From NCBI GenBank assembly GCA_947497905.1, contig CANMIH010000003.1, positions 186,001 through 250,000 on the forward strand: a stretch of 64,000 bases of DNA, read 5' to 3'. The notes beneath the pieces are model-generated. The model did no database searches and was not told where the DNA came from. It saw nothing but the letters and a program-made list of their open reading frames with translations. The stretch comes from an uncultured Pelagimonas sp. GTDB taxonomy: Bacteria; Pseudomonadota; Alphaproteobacteria; Rhodobacterales; Rhodobacteraceae. Of the stretch, positions 18,641 to 23,210 are shown one piece after another. Each line of letters opens with the position of its first letter. Positions within the stretch are counted from its first letter, which is position 1. A program made the translations under genes and the position numbers.

Positions 18641-18724
18641 GGGCGACAGGCCGCAAGGTGTGGCAGGGGACTGTAACTCCCTCGAGGCGACTCACGCCTG
18701 GTTCGATTCCAGGGTCGCCCACCA
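18641..18724 (+). tRNA. tRNA-Tyr (anticodon GTA)
   Basis: An 84-nt class II tRNA with encoded CCA: acceptor GGGCGAC/GTCGCCC, D-stem GCC/GGC, anticodon loop CTGTAAC, long variable arm with stem GAG-GCGA-CTC, and T-arm CCTGG-TTCGATT-CCAGG. Class II variable arm plus GTA anticodon identify tRNA-Tyr. Confidence 0.97.
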
Positions 18725-20249: not shown

Positions 20250-21473
20250 TTAGCGGAACAGGCTCAGTAGCTGCTGTGGCGCACTATTGGCCATCGAGAG
20301 CGACTGAACTGCCAGCTGCTGCTGCACCTGCAGCGCCTTCAGTTTCGCCGAAGCCTCTTCCATATCGGTGTCCACAAGCGCACCAATGCCGGACTTGAGG
20401 TTGTTCGACAGCTTGTCAACAAAGTCAGACTGGGTTTCCAGACGCCCCTGTGCCGAACCGAACGAGGCCGCCGCATCGATTGAGCCTTGGATCATACCTT
20501 CGATGGCCCCAAGCGCCGCTTCGGTGCCATTGTCGGTGGTCACATCGATTTTCGACAGCAGTTCAAGCGAGCCACCGATGGTGCCATCGGTTTCAGACGC
20601 CGCGGACTGCGTTGCTTCGGCGGTTGCAACGGTGATGCTCGCGCCGCTGTTGTTGGTCATATCGATCTGACCTGCGGTGGTGCCGTTTTCTGCAAAGGTC
20701 ACGTCGATACCATCTGCCTGAGCCTGGAAGTTCAGTCGCGCGACCATCTGATCGGTCACGTCCTGAAGTGTGTCACCCTCACGGGCAACATAGGCCACAT
20801 CAGCAGAGAACCCCATACCGCCGCCAGAGGCCAACTCATAGGAATTACCCGCAGCAGGTGTACCGGTCACGGTCATGACTGCACCAGTTGCAGCGTCAGC
20901 AACAGCGCTGTTTGAGCCGATATTCGATCCCATCGTACCTGCAGTCGACGCCCCTGTGCCAAGGTCTTGCTTAGAAATATTGATGTCCGAGGCGGATACA
21001 CCCGACGAGTTGCGGTCGAGCGATGCCAGAACATTGACACTGCCAGAGCCAGACGTTGTTTCGGTGTTTTGCAGAAGATTTGCGCCGTTGAACGACGCGG
21101 CCGCGACAATCGAACCGATCTGATCACGCAGCGATTCGATGTCCGCCTGGATTTTGTCACGGTCAACGTTCTCTTCCTGAGCGGCGACGATCTTGCCCTT
21201 CACTTCGGTCAGAAGGTCGGTCACGGTTTCCGCACCCATGCGCGCCACGGACACGGTGGACTGGCCAAGCGAGAGGCTCTCAGAGATTTTTTGAAACCCC
21301 TGCACATCGGCCTCCATCGCCTTCGAAATCGCCCAAGCCGCCGCGTCATCAGCGGAAGAGGAAACTTTTTTACCGGTCGAAATTTGATACTGCGTGTTCT
21401 CGATACCCATGTTGATGGATTTGAGTGTCGCCAGTGCAGTGGTTGCACCGTTGTTGGTCAGAATGCTGGACAT
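20250..21473 (-). CDS. flagellin (paralogue 1)
   Basis: Filament protein of 407 aa. The N-terminal D0/D1 domain begins MSSILTNNGATTALATLKSI and the C-terminal helix ends NSAPQQLLSLFR; both are nearly identical to the second flagellin. The central part (about residues 165-315), which forms the exposed surface, differs. GAAGG lies about eight bases before the ATG at 21473. Longer upstream frames are excluded because they run into the conserved leader. It is exported by the flagellar apparatus, whose genes are not in this window. Confidence 0.96.
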   Translation of the reverse strand: MSSILTNNGATTALATLKSINMGIENTQYQISTGKKVSSSADDAAAWAISKAMEADVQGFQKISESLSLGQSTVSVARMGAETVTDLLTEVKGKIVAAQEENVDRDKIQADIESLRDQIGSIVAAASFNGANLLQNTETTSGSGSVNVLASLDRNSSGVSASDINISKQDLGTGASTAGTMGSNIGSNSAVADAATGAVMTVTGTPAAGNSYELASGGGMGFSADVAYVAREGDTLQDVTDQMVARLNFQAQADGIDVTFAENGTTAGQIDMTNNSGASITVATAEATQSAASETDGTIGGSLELLSKIDVTTDNGTEAALGAIEGMIQGSIDAAASFGSAQGRLETQSDFVDKLSNNLKSGIGALVDTDMEEASAKLKALQVQQQLAVQSLSMANSAPQQLLSLFR

Positions 21474-21590
21474 GTTTTGCGCCTTCATTTTGCACAGCGC
21501 TTCTGCGCGGGATGTGCCCACCTTGGGCCAAAGACGTCTTTTGACGATGCAGAGGACACCGGCCGCTCCGCGCCACTCTAAGGAGTGCGG
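21474..21590 (-). promoter_or_regulatory. structured 5' leader of flagellin 1
   Basis: Four short hairpins lie in order upstream of the start: GCGC-TTCT-GCGC (21497-21508), GCCCA-CCT-TGGGC (21516-21528), CGTC-TTTT-GACG (21535-21546) and CACTC-TAAG-GAGTG (21574-21587), as read on the plus strand. The same four occur in the same order and spacing before flagellin 2 (23115-23203), with loop changes and one covarying base pair. This suggests a conserved RNA regulatory leader, perhaps a site for flagellar post-transcriptional control (FlbT-like). Confidence 0.65.
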
Positions 21591-21709
21591 CTTAACTTTT
21601 GCCCCCTAAACGTTAAGCCCGCTTTAAGAGTTTCCGGCACTGCTCTGACCATTTTCTGGCGCAAATAGGGCACCGACAAATTCAATAAAAACAGTCATAT
21701 AACCAAGAA

Positions 21710-21739
21710 AAATGGGCCGCTTTTGCAAGCGGCCCATTT
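21710..21739 (-). terminator. terminator of flagellin 2
   Basis: A 13-bp perfect stem (AAATGGGCCGCTT / AAGCGGCCCATTT, loop TTGC as read on plus). On the minus strand the stem is followed by TTTTTCTTGGTTAT. It lies about 55-80 bp after the flagellin 2 stop and separates the two flagellin transcripts. Confidence 0.88.
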
Positions 21740-21745
21740 GAGGAT

Positions 21746-21775
21746 GCTGCCTCATCTGTTAACAGATGAAGCAGC
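21746..21775. repeat. hairpin right after the flagellin 2 stop
   Basis: GCTGC-C-TCATCTG, loop TTAA, CAGATGA-A-GCAGC: a 12-bp stem with one internal mismatch, 15 bp after the stop codon and just before the true terminator. It matches the arrangement downstream of flagellin 1 (20211-20242) though the sequences differ. Likely an mRNA 3'-end stabiliser. Confidence 0.6.
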
Positions 21776-21790
21776 GCATTTTCACTTAAG

Positions 21791-23089
21791 TTAGCGGAAC
21801 AGGCTCAGAAGCTGCTGTGGGGCGCTGTTCGCCATCGACAGCGATTGAACCGCAAGCTGCTGCTGCACCTGCAACGCCTTCAGTTTCGCAGAAGCCTCTT
21901 CCATATCGGTGTCCACAAGCGCACCGATACCCGATTTGAGACTACCCGAAAGCTTGTCAACAAAGTCGGACTGGGTTTCCAGACGACCCTGTGCTGAACC
22001 AAACGATGCAGCCGCATCAATCGAGGTCTGGATGAGACCTTCGATTTCGGTCAGAGCAGAATCGACACCGGCGTCTGTGGTGACATCAATGCCCGCTAGA
22101 TCTTCGAGGCCGCCACCCACGGTGTTGCTCGCGTCCGCGCCCAAAGTCGACACGGTCACGGCCAAAGTGTCCGTCCCGTCAGTTACGGTCGAAGAGATGC
22201 TAAGGCCATTACCGCTGGCCGAGATCGACAAAGTGCTGGCGTCGATATTGTTATCCGAGGCATAGGTTTCCCACTTGGATTGAAGCGCCTTAGCAACATC
22301 CGCCGCAGTATCCCCATCACGAGCCACATAAGCGAGGTCAGAAGCCGCCATTTGCGCCTGGGTGTTCGCCGAAGCAGCGGTGGTGCGCATATCAGCCTGG
22401 GTAAACGACGAATCATCAGCGTCAGTACCGAAGATCTGCAGATCAAAGGCCGCGCCGGCCTCGACGGTCAGGCTGCTCATATCGATAGTACGGCTCTGCG
22501 TAGCATCCAAGGTGGCTGTTGCGCCTGCAGCGGCAAAGGTACCGCCAGTGGACGCGATCGCCTGCGCCTGTGTACCTAGATCTTGTTTGCGTACCGCAAT
22601 GTCCGAAGCCGACACACCTGTGGTCGAACGATCGAGAGAGGCGAGTACATTGACTGTGCCCGAACCTGCGGTCTGATCGGTGTTCTGCAACAGGTTGGCG
22701 CCATTGAACGAAGCCGCGGCGACGATCGAGCCAATCTGTTCGCGCAGCGAGCTGATGTCAGCCTGAATCTTGTCCCGATCCACGTTCTCTTCCTGAGCGG
22801 CAACGATTTTGCCTTTCACCTCAGTCAGAAGCTCGGTCACGGTTTCTGCGCCCATGCGGGCAACGGATACGGTCGACTGGCCGAGCGAGAGGCTTTCCGA
22901 GATCTTCTCAAAACCGGCCACATCTGCTTCCATGGCTTTCGAAATAGCCCAAGAGGCCGCGTTATCCGCTGCAGAGTGGACCTTTTTACCGGTCGAGATC
23001 TGGTACTGAGTCCCTTCGATGCTAGCGTTGATCGACTTCAGAGTGGCCAGTGCGGTGGTTGCACCATTGTTGGTCAGAATACTGGACAT
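21791..23089 (-). CDS. flagellin (paralogue 2)
   Basis: Filament protein of 432 aa, tandem copy of the gene at 20250. The first about 165 residues and the last about 90 are almost identical to paralogue 1, including MSSILTNNGATTALATLKSI and the terminal NSAPQQLLSLFR. The central, surface-exposed region is about 25 residues longer and divergent (rich in Ala, Ser, Thr and Asp). AAGGCG lies about eight bases before the ATG. Its own leader, 3' hairpin and terminator make it an independent transcription unit. Confidence 0.96.
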   Translation of the reverse strand: MSSILTNNGATTALATLKSINASIEGTQYQISTGKKVHSAADNAASWAISKAMEADVAGFEKISESLSLGQSTVSVARMGAETVTELLTEVKGKIVAAQEENVDRDKIQADISSLREQIGSIVAAASFNGANLLQNTDQTAGSGTVNVLASLDRSTTGVSASDIAVRKQDLGTQAQAIASTGGTFAAAGATATLDATQSRTIDMSSLTVEAGAAFDLQIFGTDADDSSFTQADMRTTAASANTQAQMAASDLAYVARDGDTAADVAKALQSKWETYASDNNIDASTLSISASGNGLSISSTVTDGTDTLAVTVSTLGADASNTVGGGLEDLAGIDVTTDAGVDSALTEIEGLIQTSIDAAASFGSAQGRLETQSDFVDKLSGSLKSGIGALVDTDMEEASAKLKALQVQQQLAVQSLSMANSAPQQLLSLFR

Positions 23090-23210
23090 AGTTGCGCCTT
23101 TTCATGTTCTGAAAGCGCTTCTGCGCAGGATCGCCCATCATGGGCCCATCGGCGTCTTTTGACGTTGCGCGGGCATTGACCCAGCGCGCCACTTCAACAA
23201 GTGCAGGCCT
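23090..23210 (-). promoter_or_regulatory. structured 5' leader of flagellin 2
   Basis: Four hairpins as read on plus: GCGC-TTCT-GCGC (23115-23126), GCCCA-TCA-TGGGC (23133-23145), CGTC-TTTT-GACG (23153-23164) and CACTT-CAAC-AAGTG (23190-23203). Order and spacing match the flagellin 1 leader within two bases. The innermost pair of the last hairpin changes C:G to T:A while pairing is kept. Beyond the hairpins the promoter is not obvious to me. Confidence 0.65.

Follow-up and report, generated by a model that had tools for sequence, protein, structure and literature searches.

Two flagellin genes, flaA and flaB, lie in tandem on the minus strand of the window (the whole 64,000-nucleotide stretch of DNA analysed here, on contig C3 of a 5.0 Mb genome whose relatives are Rhodobacteraceae), and both are preceded by leaders with short hairpins. 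The question that this locus raises is whether these leaders are an RNA structure kept by selection and, if so, what such a structure would do. The two genes are paralogs with 69% protein identity, and a strong intrinsic-terminator-like hairpin (13 pairs, T-rich tail) lies between them at 21739-21710 on the minus strand, so flaB and flaA are probably separate transcripts. Elsewhere in the window there is a tRNA-Tyr (GTA) at 18641-18724 on the plus strand, the same locus that Rfam calls as a sub-threshold tRNA-Sec. The initial annotation gave the range 21474-23210, which holds both leaders but also spans the flaB gene between them, and it wrote the hairpins as plus-strand strings; in the RNA, which is read from the minus strand, each hairpin is the reverse complement of its string (Table 1).

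Table 1. Flagellin genes, leader RNAs, hairpins (H1 to H5) and CtrA-type boxes in the window.
Feature	Position	Strand	Remarks
flaA, flagellin	20250..21473	-	start ATG at 21473; Pfam PF00669, PF00700
flaB, flagellin	21791..23089	-	Pfam PF00669, PF00700
flaA leader RNA, 115 nt	21474..21588	-	predicted start G 21588 to base before start codon; R1 39.9 bits, E 1.2e-9; R2 57.4 bits, E 1.6e-15
flaB leader RNA, 115 nt	23090..23204	-	predicted start G 23204 to base before start codon; R1 35.6 bits, E 2.3e-8; R2 50.7 bits, E 2.6e-13
H1 of flaA, CACTC-CTTA-GAGTG	21574..21587	-	5'-terminal hairpin; covariation
H1 of flaB, CACTT-GTTG-AAGTG	23190..23203	-	5'-terminal hairpin; covariation
H2 of flaA, GCGGAG...CTCTGC	21549..21571	-	constant GGC linker 5' of stem; covariation; weak in single-sequence folding
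H2 of flaB, GCGCG..GGG...CCC..CGCGC	23167..23189	-	constant GGC linker 5' of stem; covariation; weak in single-sequence folding
H3 of flaA, CGTC-AAAA-GACG	21535..21546	-	
H3 of flaB, CGTC-AAAA-GACG	23153..23164	-	
H4 of flaA, GCCCA-AGG-TGGGC	21516..21528	-	
H4 of flaB, GCCCA-TGA-TGGGC	23133..23145	-	
H5 of flaA, GCGC-AGAA-GCGC	21497..21508	-	adjoins ribosome-binding site
H5 of flaB, GCGC-AGAA-GCGC	23115..23126	-	adjoins ribosome-binding site
CtrA-type box of flaA, TTAAAGCGGGCTTAA	21613..21627	-	TTAR-N7-TTAR; position relative to 21588 as for flaB
CtrA-type box of flaB, TTAAAAACGGATTAA	23229..23243	-	TTAR-N7-TTAR, its second half ending 24 nt before 23204

Regarding the hairpins themselves, the four first reported are all present and match in order and spacing, the 3' ends of H1, H3, H4 and H5 lying 101/101, 62/64, 43/44 and 24/26 nt 5' of the start codon in the two leaders. 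When both leaders were shuffled 2000 times preserving dinucleotides, the coincident perfect hairpins numbered 0-2 against the 4 observed, and 0/2000 shuffles shared four. The pair described as changing from C:G to T:A with pairing kept is located in H1. However, a fifth stem, H2, had been missed between H1 and H3, together with the GGC linker that precedes it, and the statement that the loops differ is right for H1 and H4 but not for H3 and H5, whose loops are identical in both window leaders.

Folded as single sequences, the leaders are thermodynamically unremarkable: they were no better than shuffles (z -0.54 and -1.64), their minimum-energy folds have long-range pairs in place of H2 and H5, and the pair probabilities of these two stems are low. 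Therefore, the case depends on comparison. At 21474-21487 and 23090-23104 the AAGGCGC ribosome-site region can pair with the GCGC that forms the 3' arm of H5, which gives an alternative fold that hides the site; most relatives are without it.

The comparison took in flagellin leaders of 61 genomes (the source genome and 60 relatives) together with 78 database loci. Because the raw MAFFT alignment yielded no usable consensus in RNAalifold, we proceeded by rounds of seed and covariance model. The common arrangement of the leaders is a G-C-A start, H1, GGC, H2, three bases, H3 with an AGAAN loop, H4, H5 with an A-rich loop, the Shine-Dalgarno sequence and the start codon. The GGC linker is nearly constant among them, and the most constant part is the H3 loop, which contains AGAA in 74/79 leaders and AAAA in the other five, including both window leaders. 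What the strongly diverged leaders of genome G006 have kept is mainly two hairpins with AGAA loops, H3 and one at the Shine-Dalgarno sequence. The first model, R1, was built from 13 relatives with a hand-written structure, leaving out both window leaders, although one member was another flagellin leader of the source genome (L007). In 502 kb searched, it recovered the two window leaders (E 1.2e-9 and 2.3e-8), and nearly all its remaining matches lay directly 5' of flagellin starts.

Among 90 distinct leaders, in an alignment that was fitted to the structure, 92.3% of the cells pair, two-sided changes occur in 25/25 pairs, and the covariation score is 0.478 versus 0.177 for shuffled and at most 0.059 for slid alignments. 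In a structure-free MAFFT alignment, H1, H2, H3 and H5 also covary above shuffles; for example, the outer pair of H5 is kept in 100% versus 66% shuffled, and the third pair of H2 in 87% versus 49%. H4 was not above shuffles there because its length is variable and MAFFT left it unaligned, so its support comes from the fitted alignment. The computational comparison thus establishes a leader with five covarying stems. The proposed selection for RNA structure, which an absence of covariation among more leaders would have contradicted, is thus strongly supported.

A second model, R2, built from 79 leaders, showed how closely the structure is tied to flagellin loci. The source genome (G000) has nine of these on contigs C1, C2, C3 and C15, seven with the leader and two without (C1:328330 and C3:54875), and R2 found seven sites there at E <= 2.6e-13, all directly before flagellin genes. 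The next match (E 0.0012) was in unrelated sequence that reads as coding. In our Rhodobacteraceae sample R2 matched 127/198 genomes, and the leader structure is common to well over 100 other genera. Among the 107 strongest tabulated family matches, 96 were located 6-20 nt 5' of a Flagellin_N domain. Of the other 11, two precede flagellin genes that are either cut by a contig edge or unlisted (G142 via the genome table only), and the remaining nine are in genomes that have lost the flagellar cluster. Outside the Rhodobacteraceae R2 gave no convincing match, and the five-stem arrangement was not seen in the other-family sample.

The lost clusters are a separate observation. Around 13 of the 198 family genomes lack the fla1 flagellar cluster and have one of two recurrent joints. 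In type 1 (L160, L164-L167, L169, L170) the leader runs up to the start codon of fliC and is fused there to a piece of motB in inverted orientation, which ends exactly after GAWKVA, and in type 2 (L162, L163, L168, L171, L172, L174) fliC codon ~47 is fused to the inverted 3' end of flgE, at a shared repeat of ~10 bases. FlhA is missing in all of these genomes except one, the leaders are undecayed and the neighbours on the motB side differ. These recurrent joints may be a genome artefact.

Upstream of the leader there is a CtrA-type box. TTAR-N7-TTAR is found in 79/112 leaders, and both window leaders carry it, as expected of a CtrA-activated promoter (TTAA-N7-TTAA near -35). The spacer of 7 is almost exclusive (74 versus 1-3 for other spacers; shuffle mean 1.6), and the second half of the box starts 27 or 28 nt and ends 23-24 nt before the G of the GCA. 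Mapping in R. sphaeroides places the transcription start 23 or 24 nt after the end of the CtrA box, with a purine as first base (PMC6180460), and fliC is CtrA-dependent in Rhodobacterales (PMC12363192, PMC3692519). Judging from this equal distance, transcription should start at the first G of the leader, which would make H1 a 5'-terminal hairpin. Two other readings of the leader RNA were dropped. A terminator scan of the minus strand found no U-run hairpin in either leader, its one strong hit there being the hairpin behind flaB at 21739-21710, which leaves transcription attenuation aside. As for an upstream ORF, the flaA leader has a sole ATG, located 15 nt upstream; it shares the reading frame of the flagellin and has no counterpart in flaB.

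Turning to known systems, no Rfam 15 family matches the leader in the window, the relatives or the other families, the suhB- and tRNA-like matches lying elsewhere. This agrees with the initial annotation, which knew of no such leader: we found no published description of the five-stem form in Rfam 15 or in the searchable literature, subscription journals being outside the search. The nearest named motif is the flg-Rhizobiales RNA (RF01736), which is also a multi-hairpin RNA; its name and location point to alphaproteobacterial flagellar genes and its function is unknown. It has three stem-loops and occurs only in Rhizobiales (PMC3765529, PMC2864571), whereas the window leader has five stems and belongs to the Rhodobacteraceae. 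Furthermore, searches with the RF01736 covariance model were negative, both for the window region and the loci of nine relatives (E up to 5) and for 40 leaders of other Alphaproteobacteria (E up to 0.5).

In the CsrA-FliW system flagellin translation is controlled by protein binding to the loops of hairpins close to the ribosome-binding site, much as we propose for the window leaders, and CsrA needs GGA in the loop. However, no ANGGA or AGGNA loop is found in the window leaders (H3 has AAAA, H5 AGAA, and H4 AGG and TGA); AGGNA loops appear in FlbT-negative genomes instead. Another similar system is the FlbT-controlled 5' UTR of Caulobacter, where FlbT is a post-transcriptional repressor (Anderson and Gober 2000, via the reviews PMC3930126 and PMC4347634) and FljJ a co-repressor that is removed by export (PMC7591256). 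Here too the element is located in the flagellin 5' UTR, the genome encodes FlbT and FlaF, and CtrA is part of the regulatory chain. The Caulobacter promoter is nevertheless of the sigma54 type, its FlbT site is unresolved, and in our sample the five-stem arrangement was seen in Rhodobacteraceae only. In Brucella, FlbT has been proposed as an activator (PMC3930126, PMC4347634). A flbT transposon mutant of P. inhibens is still motile (PMC12363192), which fits a repressor and by itself demonstrates no flagellin effect.

The suggestion that FlbT acts on the window leaders, first made by analogy with Caulobacter, gains indirect support from two sequence observations, the genomic linkage and the loops. 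In the source genome flaF and flbT are single copy, and they form a flagellin-flaF-flbT operon on contig C2 that carries the best-scoring leader. Regarding the loops, we examined 54 leaders of 27 genomes that have FlbT and 31 leaders of 31 genomes that lack it, almost all of them from different alphaproteobacterial families. In an unbiased listing, the top loops were AGAA, AAAAT, AGAAT, AGAAA and CAGAAG with FlbT, versus AGGAA, AGGAT and AGGTA without it. Hairpins of at least three pairs with an ARAAN loop occurred in 20/27 FlbT-positive versus 5/31 FlbT-negative genomes (p 1.3e-5, clade structure being uncontrolled), which leaves as exceptions five FlbT-negative genomes with them and seven FlbT-positive ones without. 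Such hairpins were present in 24/54 leaders versus a shuffle mean of 2.4, and the loop controls had no comparable excess. FlbT presence largely follows flagellar type and clade, so the association may be phylogenetic. The Shine-Dalgarno sequence itself serves as the 3' arm of the hairpin in many FlbT-positive families (TCC-AGAAT-GGA). As a mirror image of this set, five flagellin leaders of FlbT-negative Alphaproteobacteria (L280, L285, L297, L298, L307) have CsrA-type loops, AGGTA or AGGAA.

We propose the A-rich loops of H3 and H5 as a candidate FlbT recognition element. More widely, and with somewhat less than even confidence, ARAAN pentaloop hairpins, above all C-AGAAN-G, might be what FlbT recognises generally in the flagellin mRNAs of Alphaproteobacteria, presented in several families with the ribosome-binding site as 3' arm (CC-AGAAN-GGA) and in the Rhodobacteraceae within the five-stem leader. 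FlbT would then correspond to CsrA, whose GGA loops are used where FlbT is lacking. The FlbT protein itself has a confident predicted structure (pLDDT 92.7), in which a helical bundle comes after five short strands. Foldseek and VIA searches with the whole model and with residues 1-53 found no clear relative, no clear match to a known RNA-binding fold and no CsrA, and therefore the fold gives no RNA-binding mode. The N-terminal strand order resembles that of CsrA, but a common fold is not supported: the pairwise scores were no better than those of shuffled sequence, and comparing profiles with a set of just three CsrA sequences gave no match.

On balance, the leader is probably a conserved cis-regulatory 5' RNA of Rhodobacteraceae flagellin mRNA and a target of FlbT at its A-rich loops, serving to delay flagellin. 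In this explanation, for which we infer the start site, the binding of FlbT, the loops as its contacts and the timing function, CtrA would switch on transcription and the RNA would begin at the first G. H1, the GGC linker, H2 and the AGAA-loop H3 would form a compact core, H4 would be a variable spacer stem, and H5 would hold its A-rich loop directly 5' of the ribosome-binding site. FlbT, probably with a flagellin co-repressor as in Caulobacter, would bind the loops of H3 and H5 and block translation or trigger decay until the hook-basal body exports flagellin, and FlaF would relieve the repression. One FlbT would thus control seven flagellin mRNAs in trans in the source genome.

Among the alternatives, the one that survives best is that the leader sets mRNA stability and basal translation, the 5'-terminal hairpin and compact stems shielding an abundant mRNA from RNase E with no dedicated binding protein. 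H1 lies at the predicted first transcribed base, and the stem sequences vary freely while the stems are kept, as this would have it; however, pure stability has no need of a near-constant AGAA loop and GGC linker, nor of ARAAN loops that track FlbT across families, and we consider it unlikely. Rather less likely still is a two-state switch, in which H5 opens, its 5' arm pairing with the linker/H2 region and its 3' arm hiding the ribosome-binding site, H5 formation frees the site, and the state is selected by a protein or sRNA. In both window leaders the minimum-energy fold does pair the AAGGCGC region with the GCGC of H5, and the low pair probabilities of H2 and H5 alone point the same way, but the fold z-scores are weak and the GGCGC extension is missing from most relatives, which have AAGGA. 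Hiding of the Shine-Dalgarno sequence is therefore not general, and we dropped it as a general mechanism, although a switch and FlbT control could coexist. It is very improbable that a transcription factor binds the palindromes as DNA: they are near the promoter, but they lie downstream of the predicted start, their stems change freely with compensation, and the length of H4 is variable, which is unlike an operator in DNA. That the two window leaders are similar merely through recent duplication of these tandem paralogs has practically no chance, and is refuted by the same structure in five other flagellin leaders on other contigs of the genome and in the leaders of well over 100 other genera.

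FlbT has been known since 2000 to act via the flagellin 5' UTR, and its target and mechanism are listed as unresolved in reviews (PMC4347634). With a covarying leader whose loop letters are near-invariant in well over 100 genera, and a loop motif across FlbT-carrying families, there is now a concrete site to mutate. If the explanation is true, it would place the coupling between flagellin synthesis and hook completion in a defined RNA element, in a very abundant group of marine bacteria.
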